A stretch of DNA of 33,291 nt from Hydrogenophaga sp. (lineage in GTDB: Bacteria > Pseudomonadota > Gammaproteobacteria > Burkholderiales > Burkholderiaceae_C). This document shows positions 1 through 28,131 of this stretch, piece by piece. Location of the stretch: the NCBI GenBank assembly GCA_018993155.1, contig JAGKSX010000098.1, forward strand, positions 1 through 33,291, given 5' to 3'. Numbering within the stretch: position 1 is the first letter of the stretch; each line of letters begins with the position of its first letter. The notes beneath the pieces are model-generated. The model had not been told where the DNA came from. It was given only the letters and a program-made list of their open reading frames with translations, and ran no database searches. The position numbers and the translations under genes are program-made.

Positions 1-974
1 TGCCGCGCCTGCTGCGCGAACTCGCGGGGAACACCGGCAAGCACGTCCGCCTGCAGGTCAGCGGCGAGACCACCGAGCTCGACAAGACCGTGATCGAGCG
101 GCTGAGCGAGCCGATGACCCACCTCATCCGCAATGCGGTCGACCACGGCATCGAGCCGCCGGCCGAGCGCATCGCGGCGGGCAAGGAGCCCGAAGGCACG
201 CTCTACCTCTCTGCCGAGCAGAAGGCCGGGCGCATCATCATCCAGATCCGCGACGACGGGCGCGGCATCAACCGCGACAAGGTGCTCGCCAAGGCGATCG
301 CGAGCGGGATCGTCGCCCCGGACGCGACGCTTTCGGACGAGGACATCCACCAGCTGATCTTCGCCCCCGGCTTTTCGACCGCAGCGCAGGTCTCGAACAT
401 TTCTGGCCGCGGGGTTGGGATGGATGTGGTCAAGCAGAACGTGAAAGAGCTGGGCGGGCGCATCACCATCGAAAGCGTTCCCGGCAAGGGCACGACCTTC
501 GCGCTTGCCCTGCCGCTGACATTGGCGATTTCGGACGGGATGATCGTGCAGGTGGGGGATCAATCGTTGGTGATCCCGCTCACCCACGTGATCGAAAGCC
601 TGCGCCCCACCCCTGCCGATGTGAAGGGCATGGGCACCCGTGCGCAGATGCTCAACGCGCGCGGCAGCTTTGTGCCGATCGTGCCGCTGGGCGTGCTGAC
701 CGGTGCGAACCAGGCTGTTGCCAACCCCTGCGAAGGCGTGCTGGTGCTGGTCGAGACCGAAGGCCATGGCCGCGCGGCGCTGCTGGTCGATGCGATCACC
801 GATCAGCGCCAGTTCGTGATCAAGGCGCTCGATGCCCATTACCGCCAAATCGACAGCGTGGCCGGGGCGACAATCCTTGGCAACGGCAAGGTCGCCCTGA
901 TCGTGGATGTCGATTTCATCGCCAGCACTGCTGCGCGCGGCACAGGCGGCGCCATTCTGGCTGCTGCGGCCTGA
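1..974 (+). CDS. cheA: Chemotaxis histidine kinase CheA, C-terminal half (5' truncated by window edge)
   Basis: CheA is the cytoplasmic kinase that takes signals from chemoreceptors through CheW and phosphorylates CheY and CheB. The frame is open from base 3, so the gene starts upstream; the ATG at 90 is internal. About 323 residues are visible. First comes the HATPase domain, with N-box HLIRNAVDHGIE, G1 box DDGRGI, G2 box GRGVGMDVVKQNV and the GKGTTF loop. A CheW-like regulatory domain follows and ends near the stop. The P1 domain with the phosphorylated His, and most of the dimerisation domain, lie outside the window, so their integrity cannot be judged. cheR starts 2 bases after the stop, so this is the upstream visible member of a che operon. 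The family call is very secure. Confidence 0.96.
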   Translation, partial: PRLLRELAGNTGKHVRLQVSGETTELDKTVIERLSEPMTHLIRNAVDHGIEPPAERIAAGKEPEGTLYLSAEQKAGRIIIQIRDDGRGINRDKVLAKAIASGIVAPDATLSDEDIHQLIFAPGFSTAAQVSNISGRGVGMDVVKQNVKELGGRITIESVPGKGTTFALALPLTLAISDGMIVQVGDQSLVIPLTHVIESLRPTPADVKGMGTRAQMLNARGSFVPIVPLGVLTGANQAVANPCEGVLVLVETEGHGRAALLVDAITDQRQFVIKALDAHYRQIDSVAGATILGNGKVALIVDVDFIASTAARGTGGAILAAAA

Positions 975-976
975 TC

Positions 977-1870
977 ATGCCCGCATCGTCTGCCATCGCG
1001 GATTCCGACAGCATGGTGCCCGGCATCAGCCCCGCGATCTACGGCGAGAAGGACTTTCGGCGCATCGCTGCCCTGATCCACGCCCGAACCGGGATCGTGC
1101 TGTCCGAACGCAAGAAGATGCTCGCCTATTCGCGTCTGGCCCCGCTGGTGCGGCGCAGCGGGCTGACAAGCTTCGGTGCGTTTCTCGATACGCTGGCGGG
1201 CGATGCGCAGGCCATGACCGACGTTATCGCCGCGCTGACGACCAATCACACCTATTTCCACCGCGAACCGCACCACTTCGAACATTTCGCAGCGGTGGCT
1301 CGCCCAGAGCTGCTGCACCGCCTTGCCAAGGGCGGCGAGGCGCGGATCTGGTCGGCGGGCTGTTCCACCGGCGAGGAGATCTGGACGCTGCTGATGGTGC
1401 TGCTCGGCCCGGATCGAGCCGAGGGTCTGAAGTTCGCCCGCACCGGTCTGCTGGCGCTGGCGAGCGACATTTCGGTGAATGCCCTCGCCGGAGCGCGGGC
1501 AGCGACCTATCCGGCAAGCGCGCTCGAAGCCCTGCCCGAGGCGCTGCGGCGTGTGTGGTGTACCCCTGCACCGGGCCGCGACGAGCCGTGCCTGCTTATC
1601 GACCCAGCGATGCAGGCGCTGGTGCGGTTTCGCGAACTCAATCTGATGGGCGATTGGCCGATGCAGCGCGCCTTCGATGTGATCTTCTGCCGCAACGTCA
1701 TGATCTATTTCGATCTTCCCACCAAGGAGCGGCTGATCGAACGCTTTGCCCGCCAACTGGCGGGCGGCGGCTATCTCTACATCGGCCACTCCGAACGCGT
1801 CAGCGGGCCTGCTGCCACGCTGCTCGAACCTGTCGGACCGACCATCTACCGGCGCAAGGGGGCGGCATGA
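977..1870 (+). CDS. cheR: Chemoreceptor glutamate methyltransferase CheR
   Basis: CheR uses S-adenosylmethionine to methylate glutamates on chemoreceptors, the adaptation step opposed by CheB. The protein has 297 residues, normal for the family. Visible motifs, in order: the N-terminal helical domain; TTNHTYFHRE, the form of the family's TTN-T-FFRE motif; the SAM-binding loop WSAGCSTGEE; DISVNAL; FDVIFCRNVMIYFD; and GGYLYIGHSERV near the end. The ATG at 977 lies 2 bases after the cheA stop. The stop overlaps the cheB start as ATGA, which suggests translational coupling. No pentapeptide-binding insertion stands out, in keeping with the two nearby receptors lacking an obvious C-terminal NWETF-type tail. 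Confidence 0.96.
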   Translation: MPASSAIADSDSMVPGISPAIYGEKDFRRIAALIHARTGIVLSERKKMLAYSRLAPLVRRSGLTSFGAFLDTLAGDAQAMTDVIAALTTNHTYFHREPHHFEHFAAVARPELLHRLAKGGEARIWSAGCSTGEEIWTLLMVLLGPDRAEGLKFARTGLLALASDISVNALAGARAATYPASALEALPEALRRVWCTPAPGRDEPCLLIDPAMQALVRFRELNLMGDWPMQRAFDVIFCRNVMIYFDLPTKERLIERFARQLAGGGYLYIGHSERVSGPAATLLEPVGPTIYRRKGAA

Positions 1871-2925
1871 GCATCCGGGTTCTGATCGTTGACGATTCCC
1901 CGCTGATGCGCGCGCTGCTCCAGCATCGTCTGGCACGCGAGGCCGACATCACCGTGATCGGCACCGCCGCCGATGCCGCCGAGGCGCGGCAGATGATCAA
2001 GGCGCTCGACCCTGATGTGGTGACGCTCGATATCGAAATGCCGGGGATGGATGGGCTGAGCTTCCTCGAGAAGATCATGCAGCTGCGCCCGACCCCGGTG
2101 ATCCTGGTGTCCGGTGCAACCGAGGCCGGGGCCAGCGCCACGGCGCGCGGGCTGCAACTGGGCGCTGTCGGGTGCATTGCCAAGTCACAGCTGCGCATGA
2201 AGCCGGGCGAGGCTGATGATGGCGCTCTGCCAGCCATGGTGCGCGAGGCGGCAAGAGTGCGGTTTGCCTGCGCGCCGCCGCGCGCTGCTCCGGCGGCTTC
2301 GGTGACGCCCGCTGCTGGACAGACCGCAGTGCCGGAGATCATCGTCATTGGCGCCTCGACCGGCGGGGTCGAGGCGCTCCACACGCTGCTTTCGGACTTC
2401 CCCGAGGATTGCCCGCCAACGCTGATCGTGCAGCACATCAATGGCTGCTTTGCTGCCGCGATTGCACAGTCCTTTGACCGGGCTGTGCGCCCGCGTGTGA
2501 TGCTGGCGACAAGCGACATGCCGCTGGAGAGGGGGATGGTCGTGCTGGCCCCCGGCAGCGACCGCCATCTGCAAGTCGCTGCCGCTGGCGCGCGGGGGCT
2601 GCGCTGTGTGCTGCGCGAAAGCGATCCGGTGTCCGGCCACCGCCCCAGCGTCGATCGCCTGTTTGCCTCGCTGGCCGCCTCGCTCCCGCCTGCGCGCGCC
2701 CATCTGGCGCTCGGGGTGCTGCTGACCGGCATGGGGCAGGACGGAGCACAGGGCATGGCTCAGCTTGCCAGCATCGGTGCGCGCACCATCGCACAGGATC
2801 AGGCCAGCTGTGTCGTCTATGGGATGCCGCGTGCGGCGATCGAACTGGGCGCCGCGCGCGAAGTACTGCCGTTGCCACGCATTGCAGCGGCGATCTTTGC
2901 TCCGGCAAGGTCCTGTCAGCCATGA
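1867..2925 (+). CDS. cheB: Chemotaxis methylesterase/deamidase response regulator CheB
   Basis: CheB removes methyl groups from receptor glutamates when phosphorylated by CheA. From the ATG at 1867 it has 352 residues; a longer upstream open frame lies inside cheR and is not used. The receiver domain has the acidic pair D9-D10 and phospho-acceptor D55 in TLDIEMPGMDG. After an Ala/Pro-rich linker comes the esterase domain, with the expected catalytic Ser in IGASTGGVEAL, His in LIVQHING and Asp in GMGQDGAQGM. The start overlaps the cheR stop (ATGA), and the stop overlaps the cheD start in the same way. Everything expected for an active enzyme is present. Confidence 0.96.
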   Translation: MSIRVLIVDDSPLMRALLQHRLAREADITVIGTAADAAEARQMIKALDPDVVTLDIEMPGMDGLSFLEKIMQLRPTPVILVSGATEAGASATARGLQLGAVGCIAKSQLRMKPGEADDGALPAMVREAARVRFACAPPRAAPAASVTPAAGQTAVPEIIVIGASTGGVEALHTLLSDFPEDCPPTLIVQHINGCFAAAIAQSFDRAVRPRVMLATSDMPLERGMVVLAPGSDRHLQVAAAGARGLRCVLRESDPVSGHRPSVDRLFASLAASLPPARAHLALGVLLTGMGQDGAQGMAQLASIGARTIAQDQASCVVYGMPRAAIELGAAREVLPLPRIAAAIFAPARSCQP

Positions 2926-3497
2926 CCGACATGAAGCCTATCAGTCCTGTCACCGCCAGTGCGCCCACGCCCGAGATTGTCCGCATGACAATCGTTCAAG
3001 GCGAAGCCAAAGCCAGCACAGACCCACGCGTGGAAATGAGCACCATTCTCGGCAGCTGCGTTGCAACCTGCCTGTTCGATCCGGTCGCCCGGGTCGGCGG
3101 CATGAACCACTTTCTGCTGGCCGAACCACCCGCTCACGCCCGCAACCAGACTTTCGACAGCGACTACGGCCTGTTCCTGATGGAGCTGCTGATCAACGAG
3201 ATGCTGGCCCTTGGCGCGCACAAGCACCGGATGCGAGCAAGGCTTTACGGGGGCGCAAACCTCAACCCCGATCTCAGCCCCATTGGCACCGCCAATGCTG
3301 CCTTTGCCCGCCAGTTTCTCGAACGCGAGAAGATCCCCTGCGTCTTCGAGGACCTCGAAGGCACGCAGGCCCGGCGCATCCAGTTCCGTCCCGCCAGCGG
3401 CCAGGTGCGTGCGCGCCTCGTGCCCTGCGATGTTGCACCTAAGGAAAAACCACTGGGGCGTCCGCAATCGGCGCTTGGGGCGGTCGAACTATTCTAG
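2922..3497 (+). CDS. cheD: Chemoreceptor glutamine deamidase CheD
   Basis: CheD deamidates glutamines on chemoreceptors, and in some bacteria also aids CheY-P dephosphorylation with CheC. The protein has 191 residues. The catalytic cysteine is in TILGSCVATCL and the catalytic histidine in GGMNHFLL, in the usual order and spacing; the RLYGGANL segment is also typical. It starts in an ATGA overlap with cheB. About 30 residues precede the conserved core and an Arg/Pro-containing tail follows it, so both ends are slightly extended. No CheC partner is visible. Its place between cheB and cheY fits receptor adaptation. Confidence 0.93.
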   Translation: MTDMKPISPVTASAPTPEIVRMTIVQGEAKASTDPRVEMSTILGSCVATCLFDPVARVGGMNHFLLAEPPAHARNQTFDSDYGLFLMELLINEMLALGAHKHRMRARLYGGANLNPDLSPIGTANAAFARQFLEREKIPCVFEDLEGTQARRIQFRPASGQVRARLVPCDVAPKEKPLGRPQSALGAVELF

Positions 3498-3515
3498 TTT
3501 CAAACGGAGCATATC

Positions 3516-3899
3516 ATGCAAGCCACGCCAACCGCCCCCATCCGTGTCCTCACGGTCGATGACAGCGCCTCGATGCGCGCCCTGCTGCTCGGCGCCCTGA
3601 CTTCGCGAGGGTTCGCAGTCGAACAGTGCGAGGATGGGCAAGAGGCGCTGGAATGGCTCGCCTCGAACGAAGTCGACGTGATCATCACCGACATCAACAT
3701 GCCGCGTCTCGACGGATTCGGGCTGATCGAAAAGCTGCGCACCAGCGCGCTCCATGCCGAGCGGCCAATTCTGGTGCTGACCACCGAAAGTTCCGAGGAA
3801 AAGAAGCAGCGCGCCCGCAATGCCGGGGCGACGGGGTGGATCGTCAAGCCCTTCGATGCCGACAAGCTCACCGCCGCGCTGCGCCGCGTGATCCACTGA
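3516..3899 (+). CDS. cheY: Single-domain chemotaxis response regulator CheY
   Basis: This is a 127-residue stand-alone receiver domain that would carry the CheA signal to the flagellar switch or act as a phosphate sink. Key residues are all present: the acidic pair D15-D16, phospho-acceptor D59 in IITDINMPRLDG, T89 in ILVLTTE, and K111 in GWIVKPF. The ATG has a GGAG-like site in the 18-base gap after cheD. No CheZ or CheC phosphatase gene is visible, so a sink role or an unlinked phosphatase is possible. It belongs to the same operon as cheW, 27 bases downstream. Confidence 0.93.
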   Translation: MQATPTAPIRVLTVDDSASMRALLLGALTSRGFAVEQCEDGQEALEWLASNEVDVIITDINMPRLDGFGLIEKLRTSALHAERPILVLTTESSEEKKQRARNAGATGWIVKPFDADKLTAALRRVIH

Positions 3900-3926
3900 T
3901 CCGCCCCACCCGTCAGGAGCTGCCCC

Positions 3927-4367
3927 ATGCGTCATGAACTCATCACCTTCGGTATCGCCAGTCAGCGTTTCGGCATCGACATCATGACCGTGCGTGAAAT
4001 CCGTGCCTGGTCGCCCGTCACCCGCCTGCCGCGTGTCCCCGACTATGTCGCAGGCGTCGTCAACCTGCGCGGTGCGGTGCTGCCGGTCATCGACCTTGCC
4101 GCGCGGCTGGGCTGGACGCCGACGGAGGCTACCCCTCGCAACCCGATCATCGTGATCGAACACGAAGGCCAGATGCGCGGTCTGATTGTTCATGACGTGG
4201 CCGACATCGTCTCGATCGAGGCGGGCACGCTCCAGCAGCCCGACGCGATGGGGCACGAGACCATCACCCATTTCCTTGAAGGCATCGCTCCGCTTGGCGA
4301 TGACATGGTCATGGTGCTCGATCTCACGCGCCTGATGGCCGACGAGCCGATCGAACTGGCAGCCTGA
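3927..4367 (+). CDS. cheW: Chemotaxis coupling protein CheW
   Basis: CheW bridges chemoreceptors and CheA in the signalling array. The protein has 146 residues and is essentially a single CheW domain: LITFGIASQRFGIDIMTVREI at the start, then the very typical LPRVPDYVAGVVNLRGAVLP, and a last strand DDMVMVLDLTRLM. A ribosome-binding site AGGAG lies 9 bases before the ATG. A 2-base gap separates it from the next small ORF, so co-translation is likely. The assignment is secure. Confidence 0.95.
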   Translation: MRHELITFGIASQRFGIDIMTVREIRAWSPVTRLPRVPDYVAGVVNLRGAVLPVIDLAARLGWTPTEATPRNPIIVIEHEGQMRGLIVHDVADIVSIEAGTLQQPDAMGHETITHFLEGIAPLGDDMVMVLDLTRLMADEPIELAA

Positions 4368-4369
4368 CG

Positions 4370-4660
4370 ATGGCAACCCTGCCGCCCGTTGCAAGCGCGC
4401 CGCATTCCGCTGCTCTGCTCAGCGGGATCGCAGCAGGCCTTGCCACCCTTGCCGAGGATGCTGAGGCGTTTGGCATCGTGCTGTGCAGCGATGGCGATGT
4501 TGCTGCCCGCTATCTGGTGCAGCTGCAACAGATCGACCGGCTTGCGCAATCCTTGCGGGAAATGGCGAACGTGCTGTCCGCTGCTGACCCGGAGGCCGCT
4601 GTGGCTGCCATCCGCCTTGGAGAGTTGCGGCAGGCGCTGGAACAGATCGATGCGTGCTGA
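4370..4660 (+). CDS. Small helical protein of unknown function in the che operon
   Basis: I do not recognise this 96-residue protein. It starts 2 bases after cheW and overlaps the next gene by 11 bases, so its place in the operon is strong evidence that it is real. It is Ala/Leu-rich with no transmembrane stretch or signal peptide. The sequence suggests mostly helix, for example RYLVQLQQIDRLAQSLREMA and a C-terminal helix ending LRQALEQIDAC. A helical protein at this site could bind a Che protein or receptor tip, but no CheZ, CheC or CheX signature is visible. Function is left open. Confidence 0.7.
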   Translation: MATLPPVASAPHSAALLSGIAAGLATLAEDAEAFGIVLCSDGDVAARYLVQLQQIDRLAQSLREMANVLSAADPEAAVAAIRLGELRQALEQIDAC

Positions 4661-4952
4661 TCGGGCGCTGATGGCGCTGCACGGAGCAGCCATCGCGCTT
4701 TCGCTGGTTGCAGCGACAGCCTGGCCGCGCCCCGGCCAGGCCGCGCTGCTGGTGCCGGTTGGCGGCAACGATCTTCACACCGTGCTACGCTGGATGGCGC
4801 AAGAGGACACTGCGGTGCTGGCGCTCGACACGGCCCGGGGCAGAGTGATCGTCCGCATATCCGACAATGCCGCCCCTTTGCACGCTCTGGCAGCAGGTAT
4901 CGTCCCGCTCACCGCACGCGCCCCCGGCTGCACAAATGGAGACGCCCGATGA
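4650..4952 (+). CDS. Small hypothetical protein, possibly exported, in the che operon
   Basis: This is a 100-residue protein not assigned to a family. I chose the ATG at 4650, which overlaps the end of the previous gene; the longer open frame upstream runs through that gene in a Cys/Arg-rich shadow frame and is unlikely. From this start the N-terminus has a charged stretch, MRADR, then a hydrophobic run, LMALHGAAIALSLVAATAW, ending near PGQAA. That resembles a signal peptide or a single membrane anchor. The remainder is short and has no recognised motif. The stop overlaps the chemoreceptor start as ATGA. The ORF could be an artefact of high GC content, but its tight fit between coupled genes supports it. 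Confidence 0.55.
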   Translation: MRADRALMALHGAAIALSLVAATAWPRPGQAALLVPVGGNDLHTVLRWMAQEDTAVLALDTARGRVIVRISDNAAPLHALAAGIVPLTARAPGCTNGDAR

Positions 4953-6486
4953 AGCTCGTCCCGGTTTATGAGATGAGCGAGCTGCGCGCCAAAGGCATGC
5001 GCCTTGCGGTCATGCTGGAAGGAATTGTCGGCGCGATCATCATCGTCTGGAGCTTTTTGGCAGGAGAACCGATTTTCGCGCTCTGCGCAGCGATGCTGAT
5101 TGCCGTGCCGGTGATCTTTGCCCTCCAGCAACGCGGCGACGGGATTGCGCGCCTGTCGACCGCAGTCAGCCTGCCGCTGCTGGGCGGGCTGCTGATTGCG
5201 CTGGCGCGATCAACCGGCTGGCTGATCGATATGCACATGGTGTTCTTCGCCTTTCTTGCAGTGCTGGTGACCATGGCCTGCTGGCGGGTGATCCTGACCG
5301 CTACGTTGACGATCGCACTGCATCACCTGCTGCTGAATTTCGTCGCCCCGGCCTATGTCTTCCCGGATGGGGCGGACTTGCAGCGCGTGGTGTTCCATGC
5401 GGTCGTCGTGCTGATGGAAGCGGCGATCCTGATGCTGCTGTGCCAGCGTTTCGAAGCACTGGTGCGCGGGCTGACCGATGCCCGCAACGCGCAGGCCGCC
5501 ATCGATGCCAAGCTCCAGGCCGAACGCGAAGCGGTCGCCAACGAACAGCGCATGGTGATGGTCAAGCTTTCCGAAAGGCTGCGCGCACTGGCGGCAGGCG
5601 ATCTGTCGGAGCGGATCGAAACGCCGTTTCCGGGCGAATATGATCAGGCGCGCACGCTACTGAATGCGTCTTGCCAGCAGCTCGATCAACTGGTTGGGGC
5701 GGTTGCGCTTACCGCCAACCGGGTTGCAACCGGCGCGCATGAACTGCGCGAGGCCTCCGGTGACCTTGCCGGCAAGACCGAACAGCAAACCGCCGCCATT
5801 GAAAATGCCGCTCGCACCGCAGGCGATCTGCTCGGCACTATCGAAGCACAGGCCAACCTGTGGTCGGCAACCCGATCGACCGCGCTGGAAGCGAAGACCG
5901 ATGCCGACCGCGGCGCCAGCGAAATCGCGGCGGCAGCGGAAGCTATCACCCGGATCGAGGCGTCATCAGCCGAAATCGGAGAGATGATCGGGTTCATCGA
6001 TACCATCGCCTTCCAGACCAACCTTCTCGCCCTGAACGCCGGAGTCGAGGCGGCGCGCGCCGGTGAGGCGGCAAGGGCTTTGCCGTTGTCGCGGGCGAAG
6101 TGCGCGAACTGGCGCAGCGTTCGGCCCAGTCGGCGACCGCCATCAAACAGCTTGTCGCCACTTCAAAGGACGAAGTGGCGATTGGCGTTGCGCGGGTCCA
6201 GCAGTTGGTCACCTTGCTCGCTTCGCTCGTTGCGCGCTTCTCTGATATCGCCGGTCAGGTGGACCGTATCGCATTGGGGGCAGAAGAAACGCTGGATGCG
6301 ATCCGTCAGATCAACGCGGCGATCATCATGCTTGACCGGGGCATGCAGCAGAACGCGGCGATGGCCGAACAGACCAACGCAGCCTCGGTCGAACTGCTGC
6401 GCGGCGCCGGGGACCTGAACGATCAGGTTGCCCGCTTCCGGCGCCAGGATAGCACCGCCGACACGCCCCTCAGCCGTGCTGCCTGA
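4949..6486 (+). pseudogene. Multi-pass membrane methyl-accepting chemotaxis protein, interrupted by a -1 frameshift
   Basis: Chemoreceptor with an unusual sensor: residues about 18-165 form five or six hydrophobic segments rather than two helices around a periplasmic domain. A HAMP-like linker (LSERLRALAAGDLSERIETP) and a coiled-coil signalling domain follow. The highly conserved tip begins [20 protein letters not shown]. The frame then fails: 4949 reads on to a stop at 6418 as nonsense, while the true continuation (VRELAQRSAQSATAIKQLV and onward) is in another frame from about 6072 to 6486. The neighbouring receptor gene has GGCGGGCAAGGGC where this one has GGCGGCAAGGGC at 6067-6078, so one G is missing. 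Intact length would be about 512 residues. This may be a real inactivation or a sequence error. Confidence 0.85.
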
Positions 6487-6545
6487 GGCCGCTCTCGCCA
6501 GAATTTCAGACGGGTCGCAGCCCAACCAGCCCAAGGAACGATGAT

Positions 6546-7991
6546 ATGTCTACCGATCCCTTGCAGGAACGCCTCGATTACTATGGTTTGTCCGATATCC
6601 GGCCATCCTCGCTTGCAGGGGTGGGCCGTGCGCTCAAGCGTCGGCTCGATACCGCGCTTGATGCGTTTTACCGCGTGATTGCCTCGCGCCGCGAACTTGC
6701 CGCTCATTTCGACAGCCCCCAGCAAATGGGGCGCGCAAAAATGGCTCAGGCTGAACACTGGCAAGCAGTGTTCCGCGACGGGGTGGACCAGCGTTTCTAC
6801 CAGCGTGCCATGCGCATCGGGAATGTTCATGCACGCATCGGGCTTGAACCCAAATGGTATGTGGGCGCCTATGGGCTGGTGCTGGATGAATTGATAACCG
6901 CCATCATCGCGCCCGGCTGGCGCGGGATGCTGCCGTGGAAGCGCGCGCAGGCGCGTCAGGTTGCGATCCTCGTCAAAGTGGCGCTGCTCGATATCGATCT
7001 GGCGCTTTCAGGTTATTTTCACAATTCCGAAGAGCGCGTTCGCATGCTGGTCAGTGACAAGCTGGGCACGGCGCTGCGGCAGGTGGCCTCGGGCGATCTG
7101 ACCGCGCGGATCGACGGCTTTCCGCCCGAATACCGTCAGGTCGAAGAAGACTTCAACGGCGCGCTGGGTACGCTTGCAGCAACGCTGGGGAGCGTGATGA
7201 ACGGGATGTCGTCGATGAACACGGGCGCAACCGAGATCCGTTCTGCCGCCGATGATCTGTCACGCCGCACCGAAGAACAGGCCGCCAATCTTGAAGAAAC
7301 AGCGAGCGCGATCGGCTCGATCAATGCCAGCGTGCAGGAAAGCGCAGCCACCAGTGCGGGCGCCAGGGCAACCATCGCCGATACATCCGCGCGCGCGGCA
7401 GACGGTTCGCAGATTGTTACCGAGGCTGTCAGTGCGATGCATCAGATCGAAAGCTCATCGCAGGAAATCACCTCGATCATCGCGGTGATCGAGAGCATCT
7501 CGTTTCAGACCAACCTGCTGGCCCTGAATGCCGGCGTCGAGGCGGCGCGAGCGGGTGAGGCGGGCAAGGGCTTTGCCGTCGTCGCCAACGAAGTGCGCGC
7601 CCTTGCCCAACGCTGCGCCGAGGCAGCCGACGAGGTCAAGGCGCTGATTTCATCGAGTTCTGTTCAGGTCAGCCGCGGGGTTGATCTGGTCGGGCGCAGC
7701 GGCGATGCCTTCGCCGCGATCACCCGCGACATCACCGCTCTTTCGGAGGCCATCCAGTCGATCGCGACCTCTGCCGCAGTGCAGGCCGAAAGCCTCGCCC
7801 AGATCACCACGGTGGTGGGAGAGCTGGACCGTTCCACCCAGCAGAACGCCGCCATGGCCGAAGAATGCACGGCCGCTGCGACCTCGCTCACCCGCGAAGC
7901 CGGAATGCTCAACAATGCGCTCGCCCAGTTCACCGTTGCCCCGCAGGAAAGCGGGCGCCTGATCGATTTGCGCCTCGATTACGCGGCCTGA
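6546..7991 (+). CDS. Globin-coupled methyl-accepting chemotaxis protein (HemAT-like oxygen sensor)
   Basis: This is a soluble chemoreceptor of 481 residues with no membrane segments. Residues about 1-165 are a protoglobin domain with the signature [16 protein letters not shown], in which H95 aligns with the haem-binding proximal His of HemAT. The MCP signalling coiled coil follows, with the tip [37 protein letters not shown] intact, unlike the preceding gene. Known family members bind haem and sense oxygen for aerotaxis, so that is the likely role here. The ATG at 6546 has AAGGA about 9 bases upstream. The C-terminus has no CheR-docking pentapeptide. It ends 1 base from the convergent peptidase gene. 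Confidence 0.93.
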
Positions 7992-7992
7992 G

Positions 7993-9411
7993 CTATTTGC
8001 CCTGCATGATCGGCGGCGCGGTAGGAACCGGGCCGCCGGTCAGGATCGAGGTTTCCTGATTGGCAAGGATGCCGACGACCTGCGTCCACACCGCGACATT
8101 CTGGCGCAGCTGAACGATGTCGATCTTGTCGAGCGTGTCGTCAGGCGTGTGGTGGAGGTCGAAATAGCGGGTGCCATCCTGTTGAAGGTCCACCAGCGCG
8201 CCCTTCTGGTCGCGCACGATGTTGAGGTCCGCCCCGCCCGTGGCGACATCATTGCCCGTCGATACGCCAAAGCGCGCCACAGCGGCGGCGATTGTCTTGT
8301 GCAGGGCCGGATTGGTTTCGCGGAAATTCGAATCGAAGCGCCACACCCGGTCCGCGCCGAAATCGCTTTCGATGCCGACCGCGATGGGTTCGTTGATGTG
8401 CGCAGCACTATAGGCCTTGCTGCCCCACAGGCCGGTTTCCTCAGCGCCTGCCATCAGCACACGGATGGTGCGCAGCGGCTGGCCTGAAACGCTCACCCAC
8501 TTAGCAGCCGCCACGATGATCGCGCAGCCTGCGCCGTCATCGAAAGCGCCCGGCGCGTTCCACCAGCTGTCGATATGACAGGCAAGCAGCACCGGCGGGA
8601 GCGCCGGATTGCGGCCGAGGATCTCTCCCACCACGTTGCCGCTCTGGGTCTGGCCGATCTGGCGCGGGTTCAGCTCCAGCTTCAGCGTGACCGGGCGGCC
8701 AGCGGCGCGGGCGAACATACGTTCAAGGTTCTCGGCATCGGGCAGGCTCAATGCACCGGACGGGATCGCTTTTGCGCCTTGCGGAAAGCTGGTGCCGCCG
8801 GTGTGCGGGTTGCGGTGGTGATCGGTGCCGATCGACTTGATGACGATGCCCACTGCGCCCTTGCTCGCTGCGATCCCGGGGCCGACCCAGCGCGCGGGGC
8901 CGGCAAAGCCGTAGTGCGAACCGTCCTGCGCGGGGCGCATCTGGTGGCTGACATAAGCGATCTTGCCCTTGAGGCTGCCCTCGGGCGCAGCACGCAGATC
9001 ATCCACTGTGCGGAAGAACACCACTTCCGCCTCGATCCCGCCTGCAGGTGTCGCCGCCGAATTGCCGAGCGGGAGAACTTCAAGGTCCTGCGCGAACGGC
9101 CCGGTCACGCGGGCACGGGCAATGTCGCCCGGTACCCAGGTGTCCATCATGAAGGGTTCATCGGCGACATTGGCGAAACCCTTGGCCTTCAGCCATGCGA
9201 CTGCCCATGCCCGTCCGCGTGCCTCGGCCTCGGTCCCGGCCTGACGCGGGCCGACTTCGGTGGTGATCCCTTCGACGAAATCCCATGCGTGAGGATCGAT
9301 ATCGCGCGCATTGTCGGCGGCCTGCTCCAGCGTCGGACGCGGAGATGGCGTGTTGGCAGTGGCGGGGACGGCGAGCGAAAGCGCGGCGAGCGCAAGGATA
9401 GGCTTGTTCAT
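7993..9411 (-). CDS. Secreted M28-family zinc metallopeptidase with PA-type insert
   Basis: Probable aminopeptidase or carboxypeptidase of family M28, exported: MNKPILALAALSLAVPATA is a clear signal peptide with cleavage near residue 19. A protease-associated-type region lies at about 120-240. The co-catalytic zinc site follows: H279 in LLACHIDSWW, D291 in GAFDDGAGC, the Glu pair 324-325 in AGAEETGLWG, D350 in GIESDFGADR and H421 in YFDLHHTPDD. All expected ligands are present at 472 residues, a normal length. It converges on the chemoreceptor gene with a 1-base gap and is divergent from the ABC-F gene. It is not part of the chemotaxis operon. Its substrate cannot be told from sequence. Confidence 0.9.
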   Translation of the reverse strand: MNKPILALAALSLAVPATANTPSPRPTLEQAADNARDIDPHAWDFVEGITTEVGPRQAGTEAEARGRAWAVAWLKAKGFANVADEPFMMDTWVPGDIARARVTGPFAQDLEVLPLGNSAATPAGGIEAEVVFFRTVDDLRAAPEGSLKGKIAYVSHQMRPAQDGSHYGFAGPARWVGPGIAASKGAVGIVIKSIGTDHHRNPHTGGTSFPQGAKAIPSGALSLPDAENLERMFARAAGRPVTLKLELNPRQIGQTQSGNVVGEILGRNPALPPVLLACHIDSWWNAPGAFDDGAGCAIIVAAAKWVSVSGQPLRTIRVLMAGAEETGLWGSKAYSAAHINEPIAVGIESDFGADRVWRFDSNFRETNPALHKTIAAAVARFGVSTGNDVATGGADLNIVRDQKGALVDLQQDGTRYFDLHHTPDDTLDKIDIVQLRQNVAVWTQVVGILANQETSILTGGPVPTAPPIMQGK

Positions 9412-9453
9412 GGCAGCAGGTGCTAGGCTGCCCCCGCGAAGCTGTCTAGCCGC

Positions 9454-9482
9454 TTGCCCTTCCCCCTCCCCTTCCCTATCTG
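9454..9482 (+). promoter_or_regulatory. Candidate sigma-70-type promoter for the ABC-F gene
   Basis: In the 120-base gap between the divergent peptidase and ABC-F genes, TTGCCC (9454-9459) and TATCTG (9477-9482) are spaced by 17 bases. Both boxes are weak matches. The rest of the gap is pyrimidine-rich with no strong structure. A GAAGGA ribosome-binding site lies at 9518-9523, ahead of the ATG at 9532. Confidence 0.3.
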
Positions 9483-9531
9483 CGCCAGCGAAACCTCATA
9501 CCCCAAGTCACGATCCCGAAGGACCCATCCG

Positions 9532-11484
9532 ATGGCCGCGCAATATGCCTATGTCATGAAGGGCATGACCAAGACCTTCCCCGGCGCCCAGAAGCCGGTG
9601 CTGAACAATATCAGCCTCCAGTTCTACCAGGGCGCGAAGATCGGCATCGTCGGCCCCAACGGCGCGGGCAAGTCGACGCTCATCAAGATCATGGCCGGGA
9701 TCGACAAGGATTTCACGGGCGAGGCATGGCCGGGAGAGAACATCACGGTCGGCTATCTGGAACAGGAGCCCGAGCTCGATCCGACCAAGACCGTGCTCGA
9801 AAACGTCCGCGAAGGCGCGAAGGAAACCGCCGATCTCGTCGCGCGCTTCAATGAAGTGTCGGCGCTGATGTGCGAACCCGATGCCGATTTCGACACCCTC
9901 GGCGCGGAAATGGGCGAGCTGCAGGACAAGATCGATGCGGTCGATGGCTGGACGCTCGACAACCAGCTTGAAGTCGCGATGGAGGCCCTGCGCTGTCCGC
10001 CGGGTGACTGGCCGGTGAAGGATCTTTCGGGCGGGGAAAAGCGCCGGGTCGCGCTCACCCGCCTGCTGATCCAGAAGCCTTCGATCCTGCTGCTGGACGA
10101 GCCGACCAACCACCTGGATCTGGACAGCATCACCTGGCTGGAAGACCTGCTGCTGGAATACAAGGGCAGCGTCGTCACGATCAGCCACGACCGGGCCTTT
10201 CTGGACCGCGTGGCCACACGCATGGTCGAACTCGATCGCGGCCGGCTGCTCAGCTATCCCGGCAATTTTGCGCAGTACCAGCTGCTCAAGGAAGAGCAGA
10301 TGGCACAGGAAGCGGTGATCAACGCCCGTGCGGACAAGCTGCTGGCACAGGAAGAGGTGTGGATCCGCAAGGGTGTGGAAGCGCGGCGCACGCGGGCTCA
10401 AGGGCGCATCACCCGGCTGGAGCGCCTGCGCGAGCAGCGCGCACAGCGGCGCGACGCGGTGGGCAGTGTGAAGCTGGAGGTGGCCAGTGGCAATGCCAGC
10501 GGCAAGATCGTGGCGGAACTGGAGAAGGTCACGCAGACGTTCGCGACCGCAGACGGCGGCCAGCGCACCGTGATCCGGGACTTCTCGGCCACCATCCTGC
10601 GCGGTGACAAGATTGGCCTGATCGGCCCCAACGGCGCGGGCAAGACCACCTTGCTCAAGATCATTCTGGGTGAACTGATTCCCACCAGCGGCACCGTGCG
10701 CCAGGGCAGCAAGATCAGCGTGGCCTATTTCGACCAGATGCGCGACCAGCTCGATCTGGACGCGACGCTCGAAGACTTCATCAGCCCGGGCAGCGAGTGG
10801 ATCGAGATCGGCAACAAGCGCACCCATGTAAAGAGCTATCTCAGCGACTTCCTGTTCTCGCCCGCACGGGCCAACGCCCCGGTCCGCACGCTCTCGGGCG
10901 GCGAGCGCAACCGCCTGCTGCTGGCGCGGCTGTTCGCGCGGCCGGCCAACGTGCTGGTACTCGACGAGCCCACCAACGACCTGGACATCGACACGCTGGA
11001 GCTGCTGGAAGACCTGCTGCAGCAGTACGAAGGCACGGTGTTCCTGGTCAGCCATGACCGGCGCTTCCTGGACAACGTGGTCACGAGCACCTTGGTGTTC
11101 GAGGGCGAAGGGCGCTGGCGCGAGTATGTGGGGGATGTGCAGGACTGGCTGACCCAGTCGGCGCGGTCGGCCGCCCTGCAGCGCGAGCGCGAGGCGCCCA
11201 CCCCACCGCCGGCGGCCCCGGCCGCCAAACCGGCCCCTTCGGCGCCCGCACCAGCACCCGCCAGGAAAAAGCTAAGCTACAAGGAACAGCGGGAGTTCGA
11301 CGCGCTGCCTCAGTTGATCGCGGCCCTGGAGGCCGAACAAGCCACCATTGGCAAGGACCTGGAGAATGGCCAACTATTTCACAGCGATCCCGCCCGCGCG
11401 GCTCAACTTGGCGCCCGGCATGCCGAAGTCGAGGGGGAATGGCTTCAGGCGCTGGAGCGCTGGGAAGCGCTTGGCGGCAGCTGA
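9532..11484 (+). CDS. Chimeric ABC-F ATPase: EttA-type N-terminus joined to Uup-type C-terminus
   Basis: The ORF has 650 residues and two ABC domains. Residues 1-196 are EttA-like: start MAAQYAYVMKGMTKTF, Walker A 41-49, and an arm region containing RFNEVSALMCEPDADFDTL and DGWTLDNQLEVAMEALRCPP; the signature LSGGE is at 165-169. EttA gates ribosomes in early elongation. From about residue 197 it follows Uup instead: WLEDLLLEYKGSVVTISHDR, KLLAQEEVWIRKGVEARRTR, Walker A 365-373, a second signature near 454, DEPTNDLD at 478, and a C-terminal Pro/Ala linker plus coiled coil (SYKEQREFDALPQ) that EttA lacks. The change happens in the shared Walker B segment. I chose the ATG at 9532 (RBS GAAGGA) over an earlier open-frame start. 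The flanking genes also change lineage here, so this is probably an assembly artefact rather than a working fusion. Confidence 0.85.
   Translation: MAAQYAYVMKGMTKTFPGAQKPVLNNISLQFYQGAKIGIVGPNGAGKSTLIKIMAGIDKDFTGEAWPGENITVGYLEQEPELDPTKTVLENVREGAKETADLVARFNEVSALMCEPDADFDTLGAEMGELQDKIDAVDGWTLDNQLEVAMEALRCPPGDWPVKDLSGGEKRRVALTRLLIQKPSILLLDEPTNHLDLDSITWLEDLLLEYKGSVVTISHDRAFLDRVATRMVELDRGRLLSYPGNFAQYQLLKEEQMAQEAVINARADKLLAQEEVWIRKGVEARRTRAQGRITRLERLREQRAQRRDAVGSVKLEVASGNASGKIVAELEKVTQTFATADGGQRTVIRDFSATILRGDKIGLIGPNGAGKTTLLKIILGELIPTSGTVRQGSKISVAYFDQMRDQLDLDATLEDFISPGSEWIEIGNKRTHVKSYLSDFLFSPARANAPVRTLSGGERNRLLLARLFARPANVLVLDEPTNDLDIDTLELLEDLLQQYEGTVFLVSHDRRFLDNVVTSTLVFEGEGRWREYVGDVQDWLTQSARSAALQREREAPTPPPAAPAAKPAPSAPAPAPARKKLSYKEQREFDALPQLIAALEAEQATIGKDLENGQLFHSDPARAAQLGARHAEVEGEWLQALERWEALGGS
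10087..10119. other. Probable chimera junction between two genomes
   Basis: This 33-base stretch encodes LLLDEPTNHLD, the Walker B/D-loop of the first ABC domain, which is nearly invariant between EttA and Uup. Upstream the protein matches EttA only; downstream it matches Uup only. A conserved k-mer of this kind can join unrelated contigs. The lineage of all other genes changes at the same point. Confidence 0.75.
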
Positions 11485-20324: not shown

Positions 20325-21289
20325 ACCACCTGCTGCCAACCCTGCACGACATCGAGGCCGCCGCGCAGGTGGTCTACCGCGAGTTCGGCCCCACGCCACA
20401 GTACCGCTGGGCCACGCTGAGCACGCGCCTGGGCACCGACTGCTGGGTCAAGCACGAGAACCACACGCCGGCCGGTGCGTTCAAGATCCGCGGCGGACTG
20501 ACCTACTTCGACCAGCTCAAGGCGCACGGCGAGCTGCCGCGCGAGGTCATCAGCGCCACGCGCGGCAACCACGGCCAGAGCATCGGCTGGGCCGCGCGCG
20601 CGCATGGCGTGGCCTGCACCATCGTCGTGCCGCGCGGCAACTCGGTGGAGAAAAACGCCGCGATGCGTGCGCTCGGCGTCACGCTGATCGAGCACGGCGA
20701 CGACTTCCAGGCCAGCCGCGAGCACGCCATCGAGCTCGCCGCCGCACGCGGCGCGCACATGGTGCCGAGCTTCCACCCCGATCTGCTGCGGGGCGTGAGC
20801 ACCTACTGGTGGGAATTCTTTCGCGCCGTGCCGGCGCTCGACATCGTCTACGTGCCGATCGGCCAGGGATCGGGTGCGTGCTCGGCGATCGCCGCCAAGC
20901 TGGCGCTGCGACACCCCGTGCGCATCGTCGGCGTGGTCAGCGCCCACGCCACCACCTACGCGGCTTCACTGGCCGAAGGCCGGGTTGTCGAAGCGCCCGT
21001 GACCACCACACTGGCCGATGGCATGGCCTGCCGCGTGGCCGACGCCGCCGCGCTCGAGGTGCTGCGGCCGCACCTGGAGCGGATCGTGCAGGTCAGCGAC
21101 GCGGAAGTCGCGCAGGCCATGCGCATGCTGTTCGCCGACACCCACAACGTGGCCGAAGGCGCGGGCGCCGCCAGCTTCGCCGCCGCCTGGCAGGAGCGCG
21201 CCGCGCTCCCGGGCCAGGTGGTGGGCACCACCCTGAGCGGTGGCAACGTGGACAGCGCGGTGCTGGCCGGCGTCCTGGCCGAGGGCTGA
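20321..21289 (+). CDS. Threonine dehydratase-like PLP enzyme (fold type II, catalytic domain only)
   Basis: Protein of 322 residues, the size of a catabolic serine/threonine dehydratase without the ACT regulatory domain of biosynthetic IlvA. The PLP lysine is K55 in HENHTPAGAFKIRGGLTYF; the phosphate loop is the variant GQGSGACSA, and TLSGGNVDSAVL near the C-terminus contacts the pyridine ring. The start is GTG at 20321, overlapping the previous stop (GTGA); no ATG fits as well. Such enzymes deaminate hydroxyamino acids to 2-oxo acids and ammonia; racemases and other lyases of this fold cannot be excluded. It is the last gene of the seven-gene run and suggests the pathway ends in amino-acid breakdown. 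Confidence 0.88.
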   Translation: MNHLLPTLHDIEAAAQVVYREFGPTPQYRWATLSTRLGTDCWVKHENHTPAGAFKIRGGLTYFDQLKAHGELPREVISATRGNHGQSIGWAARAHGVACTIVVPRGNSVEKNAAMRALGVTLIEHGDDFQASREHAIELAAARGAHMVPSFHPDLLRGVSTYWWEFFRAVPALDIVYVPIGQGSGACSAIAAKLALRHPVRIVGVVSAHATTYAASLAEGRVVEAPVTTTLADGMACRVADAAALEVLRPHLERIVQVSDAEVAQAMRMLFADTHNVAEGAGAASFAAAWQERAALPGQVVGTTLSGGNVDSAVLAGVLAEG

Positions 21290-21347
21290 CTCTCGCGCGG
21301 CGAATCAAGCAGAATGGGCACCCGGCAAAAAACGCGGAGTGCAACGC

Positions 21348-21380
21348 ATGTTCGATCTGAGTGAAAGGGTGCAGGCCTGA
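21348..21380 (+). CDS. Possible 10-codon leader ORF before the response regulator
   Basis: ATG at 21348 opens MFDLSERVQA and stops at TGA 21378-21380, which overlaps the ATG of the response regulator (TGATG). GGAG at 21335-21338 is a good ribosome-binding site for it. It could couple translation to the regulator gene. It is short enough to arise by chance. Confidence 0.3.
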   Translation: MFDLSERVQA

Positions 21381-22096
21381 TGGAAGCCACCGTGATGTGG
21401 CGCTGCCTGGTGGTGGAAGACGACGCGGACAACGCGCGCTACATCGCCAATGGTTTCCGCGCGCTCGGCCACGTGGTCGTGATCTGCCGCGATGGCATGG
21501 AAGCGCTCGGCCGGGCCACCAGCGAGCAGTGGGACCTGATCATCCTGGACCGCATGCTGCCCAACGAGGTGGACGGCCTCTCGATCCTCGCGACCCTGCG
21601 CGGCCTGGGCAAGAAGACACCCGTGCTGGTGCTCAGCGCGCTCAGCGCCCTGGACGAACGCGTGCGCGGGCTCAAGGCGGGGGGCGACGACTACCTGACC
21701 AAACCCTTCGCTTTCTCCGAACTCGCCGCGCGGGCCGAGGCCCTGGTGCGCCGCTCGCGGCCGGGCCCGGCGATCCGCACGCTGCAGGTGGCCGATCTCA
21801 AGCTCGATCTCGCGAGCCGCCATGTCGAGCGCGGCGGCCGGCCGGTGGCGCTGCAGCCGCGCGAGTTCCGCCTGCTCGCCTACCTGATGAGCCACCCCGG
21901 CCAGGTGCTGACCCGCACCATGCTGCTCGAAGCCGTGTGGGACTACCAGTTCGATCCGCAGACCAACGTGATCGACGTGCAGGTCAGCCGGCTGCGCGGC
22001 AAGCTCGATGCGGGCGGTGCGCCACCGCTGATCCACACCGTGCGCGGCATCGGCTACCGCATCGCCGCCGACGACGACCCAGACAGCGCCGCATGA
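21380..22096 (+). CDS. OmpR/PhoB-family response regulator (TctD-like)
   Basis: DNA-binding response regulator of 238 residues. The receiver domain (about 8-125) has an acidic cluster in VVEDDADN, phospho-acceptor D57 in IILDRMLPNEVDG, a Ser where Thr is usual (VLVLSALSALD), and lysine in DDYLTKPFAFSEL. The winged-helix domain (about 138-230) has ALQPREFRLLAYLMSHPGQVLTR, VIDVQVSRLRGKLD and IHTVRGIGYRI. Start at 21380; the ATG at 21395 is an alternative. It overlaps the kinase gene (ATGA), forming a cognate pair. Its position before tctB/tctA suggests control of that transporter, as TctD does in enterobacteria; this is inference. Confidence 0.93.
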   Translation: MEATVMWRCLVVEDDADNARYIANGFRALGHVVVICRDGMEALGRATSEQWDLIILDRMLPNEVDGLSILATLRGLGKKTPVLVLSALSALDERVRGLKAGGDDYLTKPFAFSELAARAEALVRRSRPGPAIRTLQVADLKLDLASRHVERGGRPVALQPREFRLLAYLMSHPGQVLTRTMLLEAVWDYQFDPQTNVIDVQVSRLRGKLDAGGAPPLIHTVRGIGYRIAADDDPDSAA

Positions 22097-23466
22097 TCGG
22101 CCAGCTGGGCGGACTCTGGCGCTCGGTCGGTTTTCGCCTGGCGTTCTCCTACGGTTTCCTGGTCGCCGTCACCATGCTGGCCGCCCTGGCCATTGTCTAC
22201 CTGCAGACCGTCGGCGTGCTGCACCAGCGCATGGCGCGGCAGGTAGGCCTGTCGACGCAGCAGCTGATGGCGGACATGAACGAGGGCGGCACCGCGGCGG
22301 CGGCGGCGGCCATCACCCGGGCGCTGACGGACGGCCGCGACTCTGACAGCGAGATCTACCTCTTGACCGACCGAGAGGGCCACCGGCTCGCGGGCAACCT
22401 CGACCGCGCCCCCGACGCCGCCGCGAACACCGGGCCGACCCAGCGGCGCGTGGAGCGCGACGGGCGCAGCGTGAACGCCTACCTGGTCATGCGCACCCTG
22501 CCCTACGGCGGCGTGCTGGTGGTCGGGCAGGACCTGCGGGACCAGGAGCTGATCGAGTCCCTGGTGGCGAGCGCGAGCGCGGCCGCCGGCATCGTGGCCG
22601 TGCTGCTGCTGATCGGCGGCACCTTCGTGTTCCGCCAGGAACTCGAGCGCAGCGTGAGCGCGGTGCGCCTCACGGCCAAGCGCATCGCCACGGCCGGCGA
22701 GCTGCGCGAGCGCGTCGCGGAGTCGGGCGCGGACGATGAGTTCGCGCTGCTCAACCGCGAGATCAACACCATGCTCGACCGCATCGAGTCGCTGATGGAC
22801 GGCGTGCGCCACGTCTCCAACACCATCGCGCACAACCTGCGCACGCCGCTCACGCGCATCCTCGTGCGCCTGCGCCACGCGGAGCAGGCCGACACGGCCC
22901 CGGCGCAACGCCGCGAGGCCATCGGCGCGGCCATTCGCGAGATCGAAGAGCTGACGCTGGTGTTCGAGAAACTGTTGCAGATCGCCGAGGCCGAGGCCGG
23001 CGCGCGGCGCCGCAGCTTCACGCCGGTGGCGCTCGACGTGGTCGCCGCCGACGTGGTGGAACTCTACGAGGCCGTTGCCGAGGCCCAGGACGCCGTGCTG
23101 AGACACGAACCGGCCGACGAGGTGCAACTGCCCGGCGACCGCGACCTGCTGGCCGGCGCGCTGGCCAACCTGCTCGACAACGCGCTCAAGTACGCCGGCC
23201 CGGGGGCGGGGATCCAGGTGGGCACGCAGGAGCTGCCCGATGGCGTGCGGCTCAGCGTGCAGGACAACGGCCCCGGGGTCCCCGATGCCGAACTCGCGCG
23301 CCTGGGCACGCGCTTTCACCGCCTGCAGCCGGACGGCGCGCCGGGGCATGGCCTGGGCCTGGCCAGCGTGCAGGCCGTGGTGGCCCTGCATGGCGGGCGC
23401 CTGCATTTCGAGAACGCGGCACCGGGCCTGCGCGCCGTCATCGAACTGCCGCGACCCAACCGCTGA
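22093..23466 (+). CDS. Membrane sensor histidine kinase (TctE-like)
   Basis: Protein of 457 residues from the ATG at 22093 that overlaps the regulator stop; the longer open frame upstream is a shadow of the regulator gene. Topology: TM helix at about 14-38, a short periplasmic sensor region (about 40-158), TM helix at 160-180, and a HAMP-like linker to about 235. HisKA has H247 in VSNTIAHNLRTPLTRIL. The HATPase domain has LANLLDNALKYAGPG, QDNGPGVPD and GHGLGLASVQAVVALHGG. All catalytic motifs are present. It should phosphorylate the preceding regulator. A signal related to carboxylates is possible given the adjacent transporter but not shown. Confidence 0.92.
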   Translation: MIGQLGGLWRSVGFRLAFSYGFLVAVTMLAALAIVYLQTVGVLHQRMARQVGLSTQQLMADMNEGGTAAAAAAITRALTDGRDSDSEIYLLTDREGHRLAGNLDRAPDAAANTGPTQRRVERDGRSVNAYLVMRTLPYGGVLVVGQDLRDQELIESLVASASAAAGIVAVLLLIGGTFVFRQELERSVSAVRLTAKRIATAGELRERVAESGADDEFALLNREINTMLDRIESLMDGVRHVSNTIAHNLRTPLTRILVRLRHAEQADTAPAQRREAIGAAIREIEELTLVFEKLLQIAEAEAGARRRSFTPVALDVVAADVVELYEAVAEAQDAVLRHEPADEVQLPGDRDLLAGALANLLDNALKYAGPGAGIQVGTQELPDGVRLSVQDNGPGVPDAELARLGTRFHRLQPDGAPGHGLGLASVQAVVALHGGRLHFENAAPGLRAVIELPRPNR

Positions 23467-23492
23467 CGCGGCAGCGCGACGGCCGCGGCCGA

Positions 23493-23510
23493 CATTGCCA
23501 AATGGCAATG
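23493..23510. promoter_or_regulatory. Palindrome CATTGCCA-AA-TGGCAATG, candidate operator upstream of tctB
   Basis: Two perfect 8-base arms flank AA in the gap between the kinase stop and tctB. Its AT-richer make-up stands out from the surrounding GC-rich DNA. It is about 110 bases ahead of the tctB start, a fair place for a regulator site. No T-run follows the right-hand arm beyond TTTT, so it could also be a weak terminator of the kinase gene. Confidence 0.5.
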
Positions 23511-23622
23511 TTTTGGTCACCCACACACGCCCACGGTCTTCTTACCATCGCGCGGCGCACGTCCTGTGCCCTCGCCGAGCCCTGTCCAGGAGCCGGCGAT
23601 CAACGCCATTTCAGGAGACATC

Positions 23623-24108
23623 GTGAGAATCAAGAGTCAGAGAGACTTTGCCTCGGGCGTGCTGTTCAGCGCGTTCGGTGTGGCCTTCGCCTGGGGTGCC
23701 ACCACCTACAACGTGGGCACCGGTGCCCGCATGGGCCCAGGCTATTTCCCGCTGGTGGTGGGCGTGCTCATCGCCATCATGGGTGTGCTGATCACGCTCA
23801 AGGCCCTGACGGTGAAGACCGAGGATGGCGAGCCGATCGGCCGCATCGCCTGGCGCCCCCTGATCTTCATCATCGGCGCCAACCTGATCTTCGGCGTGCT
23901 GCTGGTGGGTGTGCACAGCTGGGGCCTGCCGGCCATGGGCCTGATCGTCGCGATCTACGCCCTCACTTTCGTCGCCAGCCTGGCGGGCGACCAGTTCAAG
24001 GCCAAGGAGGTGCTCGTGCTCGCCACCGTCCTGGCGATCGGCAGCTACATCGCCTTCGAACTCGCGCTCAAGCTGAACTTCCCGATCTGGCCGGCCTTCA
24101 TCGGCTGA
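23623..24108 (+). CDS. tctB: Tripartite tricarboxylate transporter small membrane subunit TctB
   Basis: TctB is the poorly conserved small membrane subunit of the TctABC secondary transporter, which takes up citrate or other carboxylates with a periplasmic binding protein. The protein has 161 residues with four hydrophobic helices: about 10-30, 40-62, 80-100 and 105-125, with more hydrophobic sequence near the C-terminus. The segment MGPGYFPLVVGVLIAIMGVL is typical of the family. I chose GTG 23623, with AGGAG 8 bases upstream, over GTG 23566, which would add 19 residues without a ribosome-binding site. tctA follows 34 bases later, so they are co-transcribed. Confidence 0.88.
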   Translation: MRIKSQRDFASGVLFSAFGVAFAWGATTYNVGTGARMGPGYFPLVVGVLIAIMGVLITLKALTVKTEDGEPIGRIAWRPLIFIIGANLIFGVLLVGVHSWGLPAMGLIVAIYALTFVASLAGDQFKAKEVLVLATVLAIGSYIAFELALKLNFPIWPAFIG

Positions 24109-24142
24109 TGCGCGTGACCACGACCCCCACCAGACAAGAACC

Positions 24143-25654: not shown

Positions 25655-25658
25655 GACT

Positions 25659-25763
25659 CCCCCCTGCGCCGCTTCGCGGCTTCCCCCCTCTCTGGCGCGC
25701 CTTCGGCGCTGGGAGGGGGGACGGCATCTTGGGCCGGCGAAGCCGGACCCTTGATGCCCCTGG
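25659..25763. repeat. Hairpin-rich intergenic repeat, copy A
   Basis: Three hairpins in a row follow the tctA stop: GCCGC-TTC-GCGGC (25668-25680); CCCCCCTC (25683-25690) with GAGGGGGG (25713-25720), enclosing GCGCC-TTC-GGCGC; and CCGGC-GAA-GCCGG (25734-25746). It ends with TTGATGCCCCTGG. The same order of elements recurs at 30655-30742. Such a layout suggests a dispersed, non-coding repeat that may end transcription or protect mRNA 3' ends. Confidence 0.6.
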
Positions 25764-25803
25764 AGTGGAGTGGCCTCTGCGGATGCCGCTGGGTGGTGTC
25801 GCT

Positions 25804-28131
<2,328 letters not shown>

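Follow-up and report, generated by a model that had tools for sequence, protein, structure and literature searches.

The question raised by this locus is whether a reading frame that begins as one ABC-F ATPase and ends as another records an exchange of DNA between two classes of bacteria, or a mistake made when the genome was put together. The window, that is the whole stretch of DNA analyzed here, is the entire contig C3 (33,291 bases) of the draft genome G000, which comprises 4,896,586 bases in 176 contigs, is 94.2% complete with 3.3% contamination and, judging from its shape, appears to be a metagenome bin. The original prediction was a two-genome chimera joined within an ABC-F gene at about 10.1 kb, and split HMM scores, a base table, the flanks and the composition agree with it. 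From the sequence, the window is very probably a metagenome-assembly chimera of a sphingomonad-type alphaproteobacterium and Hydrogenophaga, joined inside the ABC-F gene, and the hybrid is almost certainly an artefact.

One reading frame with halves of two ABC-F families

The frame at 9532-11484 on the plus strand is open over 650 amino acids and divides into the following parts:

9532-10086, plus strand: 5' part of a sphingomonad-type ettA, hybrid residues 1-185 (98.0% amino acid identity to G456 over residues 1-196; 91.3% DNA identity up to position 10118)
10087-10119, plus strand: join interval, 33 bases encoding LLLDEPTNHLD, assignable to neither parent (base table)
10120-11484, plus strand: 3' part of a Hydrogenophaga uup, residues 197-650, with the Uup-type C-terminal domain (91.9% amino acid identity to G011; PF16326)

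Residues 1-196 score 289.6 bits with the EttA model TIGR03719 and 133.6 bits with the Uup model NF050005 (both NCBIfam), whereas residues 197-650 score 551.4 bits as Uup and 321.9 bits as EttA. This is the division that had been predicted, EttA-like up to LLLDEPTNHLD (residue 196) and Uup-like beyond it. The Uup-type C-terminal region expected from the same reading is present as well, PF16326 matching residues 580-647 with 67.8 bits against a cut-off of 32. Searching the halves separately, as had also been proposed, led to an alphaproteobacterial EttA for the first (98.0% identity to that of G456, versus 38.5% to the Uup of the Hydrogenophaga genome G011) and to a Hydrogenophaga Uup for the second (91.9% to that of G011, versus 37.9% to the G456 EttA).

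The hybrid is like a natural alphaproteobacterial EttA over residues 1-196 but differs from one in its Uup-type residues 197-650, and as a whole it misses the TIGR03719 cut-off (629.9 versus 806.75 bits). Likewise, it is like Hydrogenophaga Uup over residues 197-650 but differs in its first ATPase half, which is EttA-type through LLLDEPTNHLD. The whole protein passes the cut-off of the second EttA model, NF008775 (630.6 versus 599 bits), as a hybrid is able to do given that a natural Hydrogenophaga Uup reaches 459 bits and G000's own EttA 967.6 bits with this model. The NF050005 cut-off of 900 bits is uninformative here because the natural Uup of G011 falls below it too (735.4 bits, compared with 705 bits for the hybrid).

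The two parts also differ in where their relatives are found. The C-terminal part has matches of 75-92% in all 23 same-genus genomes, whereas the N-terminal part has only matches of 52-56%, in 22 of the 23; we took these to be the genus's EttA, a test by HMM having covered G000's own copy only. When 398 genomes sampled from the phylum were searched with the N-terminal part, 56 reached the threshold, G000 included, and the 17 best matches besides G000 (74-97%) all fell within family f57 of another class.

Flanks of different origin

The segment to the left of the join carries a chemotaxis operon, two receptors and a peptidase:

1-10086, unstranded: sphingomonad-type (alphaproteobacterial) segment (Pfam, NCBIfam, gene order, composition)
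90-974: cheA, 3' part
977-1870: cheR
about 1867-2925: cheB
2922-3497: cheD
3516-3899: cheY
3927-4367: cheW
4949-6418: MCP
6546-7991: globin-coupled MCP
7993-9411, minus strand: M28 peptidase

The gene order A-R-B-D-Y-W-globin-coupled receptor recurs, minus the window's first receptor, in the alphaproteobacteria G164 and G647 of family f57, and a receptor resembling the globin-coupled one is found in 21 of 298 f57 genomes at the threshold applied. The M28 peptidase lies close to ettA in five of the eight alphaproteobacterial ettA loci fetched (G286, G441, G442, G470 and G440), and is not near it in the other three (G456, G387 and G168); in G470 a single alignment of 75.6% identity spans 8060-10241, from the peptidase into ettA. 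Because the che operon adjoins ettA in none of these eight loci, a further join may lie somewhere inside 1-8044. The closest ettA genes belong to genus g183 (60 genomes) but the che operon has its matches in G164 and G647, which represent other genera of that family, so that the left donor is placed only to family. Its sphingomonad name rests on the best listed plasmid matches, not on a tree: among the matches listed, the best for EttA is from Sphingomonas parapaucimobilis (71.7%) and the best for the receptor from Novosphingobium (47.1%), with Rhizobium making up 19 of the 38 records.

The other side of the join is Hydrogenophaga DNA:

10120-33291, unstranded: Hydrogenophaga segment, collinear with G011 and G003 except for block 21282-25816 (blastn, composition)

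By blastn against the fetched relatives, these 23 kb are 83-85% identical in DNA to Hydrogenophaga G011 and G003. The flanks thus differ as had been foreseen, sphingomonad-type on the left and Comamonadaceae-type on the right, and the right one is now resolved to the Comamonadaceae genus Hydrogenophaga.

A block of about 4.5 kb in the right flank (21282-25816) has nothing aligned to it at this position in G011, G003, G023, G005 and G007, all five of them Hydrogenophaga. It is either a strain-specific insertion or a segment lost from the other Hydrogenophaga, and it contains:

21380-22096: OmpR-type response regulator
24143-25654: TctA transporter gene

A tetranucleotide plot in 1-kb windows, one of the checks proposed with the original prediction, places a step at 10-11 kb, where the switch lies. 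We scored each window by its log-ratio between alphaproteobacterial loci and the bin, with a scorer trained on the same loci that form its background. The ten windows up to 10 kb range from -0.002 to 0.072, the mixed window at 10-11 kb has -0.025, and the 22 windows from 11,001 on range from -0.039 to -0.100; the background means are 0.058 for the alphaproteobacterial loci (n = 176 windows) and -0.053 for the bin (n = 181 windows, 8.8% of them above 0). The first bin background included the alpha-like loci L109 and L110 (the first 6 kb of contigs C126 and C97), and a rerun leaving both out gave the same result. The left arm as a whole has 0.032, below the alphaproteobacterial mean of 0.058, a value that would fit a donor of another genus.

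The switch falls on a word that both genes can share

We located the switch with a table of bases built on protein-guided codons, comparing nine alphaproteobacterial ettA genes with 44 rows of betaproteobacterial uup (37 distinct after removal of seven duplicates). The nearest lineage changes abruptly at one point. The last alpha-diagnostic base is 10086, where eight of the nine ettA genes and a single one of the 37 distinct uup genes have the window's base. At 10120, the first base diagnostic of uup, it occurs in none of the nine ettA and 32 of the 37 uup genes. The switch had been expected between 10072 and 10135, and both bases lie within that range. Across the join, the ettA of G456 follows the window's letters without mismatch up to 10115, and four of the 37 distinct uup genes equal the window over all of 10087-10119.

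For a closer set of ettA genes, we took the best 20 loci out of the 60 genomes of genus g183 and compared them with the 37 uup genes, giving 740 pairs that are not independent. An exact word of at least 16 bases is common to 542 of them. The longest overall has 31 bases (three pairs, at 10085-10115), and of the 44 pairs sharing at least 29 bases, 40 have the word at the join and four elsewhere. Natural ettA and Hydrogenophaga-type uup genes thus have exact words of 29-31 bases in common at the join, which means that natural genes of both lineages are able to share a long enough word there; judged by these relatives, the actual two parents would share one as well. The words sit at LLLDEPTNHLD, in keeping with the earlier proposal that the switch falls in the segment most conserved between EttA and Uup. 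Counting against the chimera, the longest word of a pair is located at the join in just 145 of the 542 pairs.

Recombination, too, favors a crossover in a patch of identity. The window could then record a real exchange between classes, in which 10 kb or more of sphingomonad DNA, the chemotaxis operon included, entered Hydrogenophaga at the roughly 30-base identity of ettA and uup and produced a working hybrid ABC-F ATPase, as the open frame would allow. On the sequence evidence, we regard such an event as highly improbable. For homologous recombination, an identity patch of about 30 bases is generally regarded as short, and the proteins of the two genes have 38% identity. Moreover, the left arm does not revert to Hydrogenophaga before the contig ends, either in composition or in similarity to the fetched Hydrogenophaga loci.

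ABC-F genes in the bin and in relatives

Contig C53 of G000 encodes a separate, complete EttA (941.9 bits, above the TIGR03719 cut-off), and we rejected on this ground the idea that the hybrid is a misread native EttA. The separate intact gene is a point in favor of recombination, since the hybrid would then replace Uup only. The other long ABC-F match in G000, on C46, has PRK10636 as its best model, which we take to be YheS-type, and no second Uup was found in G000. When the bin was searched with the first 543 bases of the native uup and the 453 bases upstream of it (G011 as query), it yielded, apart from three weak partial matches, just the last 35 bases, those at the join. We therefore rejected the idea that the bin has the native 5' end of uup at another place; that this part was not found also speaks for an artefact.

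Further evidence against a recombinant gene comes from relatives. None of the best 80 of 354 relatives found in a genome scan, which may omit records very near the window, has the EttA-type N-terminal part or the fusion. All 80 have a Uup-type N-terminal part with at most 41.6% identity to that of the window, and we rejected a natural family of EttA/Uup hybrids on this basis. An EttA/Uup chimera or domain swap appears in none of the titles or abstract openings among the literature matches listed, which is no proof of absence, and the string 'chimer' does not occur in the available part of PMC6723617.

The same relatives reveal what usually lies upstream of uup. In six of seven relatives scanned, rRNA genes divergent from uup are found there, L047 being the exception. 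Four of the relatives with upstream rRNA genes read N at the place of the 16S gene, and in G005 the 16S gene starts about 0.7 kb from the uup start. A contig end lies at most 1 kb upstream of the uup match in 48 of the 80 loci (L029-L108). The region upstream of Hydrogenophaga uup is a spot where assemblies break.

A second join in guaA

A like join, between the same lineages, is present in an unrelated gene on another contig of the bin, C126 (35,692 bases), which opens with a stretch of mostly alpha-like composition:

G000:C126:5747-5781 (locus L212): second chimeric join, inside guaA, of the same two lineages

Positions 1-315 and 551 to about 769 of C126 match alphaproteobacterial genomes near their guaA. 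The guaA itself is Hydrogenophaga-type at residues about 13-149 (mean base agreement 0.81-0.98 in ten-codon blocks) and alpha-type from residue about 161 to its end; at the protein level each 60-residue piece from 151 on is closer to alphaproteobacteria, although several ten-codon DNA blocks on this side fail to separate the lineages. The Hydrogenophaga side is 89-91% identical to four same-genus genomes and the alpha side 80-83% identical to six f57 genomes. The switch lies between 5782, the last base that is clearly Hydrogenophaga, and 5746, the first alpha one, and the alignments to G164 and G286 end exactly at 5781. Against a clean switch, the alignment to G456 continues through the join to 6175 (77.8%), and base 5749, inside the interval, is of the Hydrogenophaga type and its codon agrees fully with neither side. 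In five of 24 natural guaA pairs, a common word of 28-32 bases falls exactly on the join. The longest word lies there in nine of the 24 pairs, with one tie, but other pairs have words of up to 42 bases elsewhere, which likewise counts against the chimera. In seven same-genus genomes (G009, G014, G004, G022, G017, G005 and G007) guaA and guaB are contiguous at 81-90% identity, and no other guaA match exists in G000 at E <= 1e-50.

The guaA join bears directly on the choice between readings. A single join of this kind could be a rare recombination. Two joins of the same lineages in unrelated housekeeping genes, each within 33-35 bases at which natural genes can be identical and each with a foreign arm that runs to the contig end, are the behavior of a k-mer assembler; their occurrence together in a single draft bin favors chimeric assembly over cross-class recombination. 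The two joins also bear on a physical chimera made during library preparation, by template switching in PCR or MDA or by ligation, and then assembled faithfully. Template switching prefers short identical stretches as well and is expected to leave the same sequence picture; it would, however, have had to happen twice independently, each time presumably with enough chimeric molecules to outvote the true paths, and both joins are collinear in their genes. We hold this to be the least likely of the readings considered here.

Approximately 80 bases between guaA and guaB (L212, about 6260-6343) have many matches of 83-93% in Hydrogenophaga genomes and look like a dispersed intergenic repeat of the genus.

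How an assembler could have made the join

An assembly chimera could have formed as follows. The sample would have contained both organisms, and about 29-33 bases at LLLDEPTNHLD can be the same in their paralogous genes ettA and uup. In a short-read assembly in which identical k-mers are merged, this stretch would become a single node with two entries and two exits, and the assembler would have paired the ettA entry with the uup exit. In Hydrogenophaga the correct uup path was probably interrupted or unusual in its coverage: its way in is short, a divergent rRNA operon being a frequent upstream neighbor of uup, and the operon's place beside uup, where contigs tend to end, probably favored the wrong path. 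The hybrid frame is open because the shared word is in the same frame in both genes. Common assemblers use a k of 21-33 in early rounds, which fits the length of the shared word at the join. The graph step itself we infer.

Chimeric nodes in the de Bruijn graph of a metagenome are described in the available part of PMC8171044, with training graphs of k = 31. As in the case treated there, the window has an identical stretch with two ways in and out, at which the contig switches species. That case concerns evolutionarily similar species, whereas the window joins the paralogues ettA and uup of different classes; guaA is an orthologue pair. GUNC's authors, in the available part of PMC8201837, list misassembly among the sources of chimeric MAG contigs and call it less common than mis-binning. 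This rarity and the bin's contamination of just 3.3% are points against a chimera.

If the join is an assembly mistake, the genes to its left and right must not be treated as neighbors; 1-10086 is to be taken as sphingomonad-type DNA and 10120-33291 as Hydrogenophaga. Reading it so keeps the chemotaxis operon, the globin-coupled receptor and the peptidase from being credited to Hydrogenophaga, and a 650-residue hybrid ATPase from passing as a new ABC-F type. The present analysis gave no evidence for a functional hybrid ATPase; as far as sequence can tell, it is almost certain that the hybrid gene does not represent a new protein, and we infer that no cell carries the ettA/uup fusion.

Other alpha-like stretches in the bin

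With its estimated contamination of 3.3%, G000 contains two or more contigs in which the lineage changes within a gene, an error type that contamination scores may miss. A bin-wide scan of composition for other chimeric ends returned 47 alpha-like stretches on 47 different contigs of the 176, mostly at first ends and including the one on C126, positives that are to be weighed against the 8.8% of positive windows in the background. C90 has six alpha-like windows in an internal run, C50, C5 and C17 start with two each, and those of C4 are scattered. Two low-GC blocks (about 0.48-0.64), G000:C97:1-6000 (L110) and G000:C90 about 1500-8500 (L201), stand out in contigs that are otherwise GC-richer; they are possibly islands or more foreign joins.
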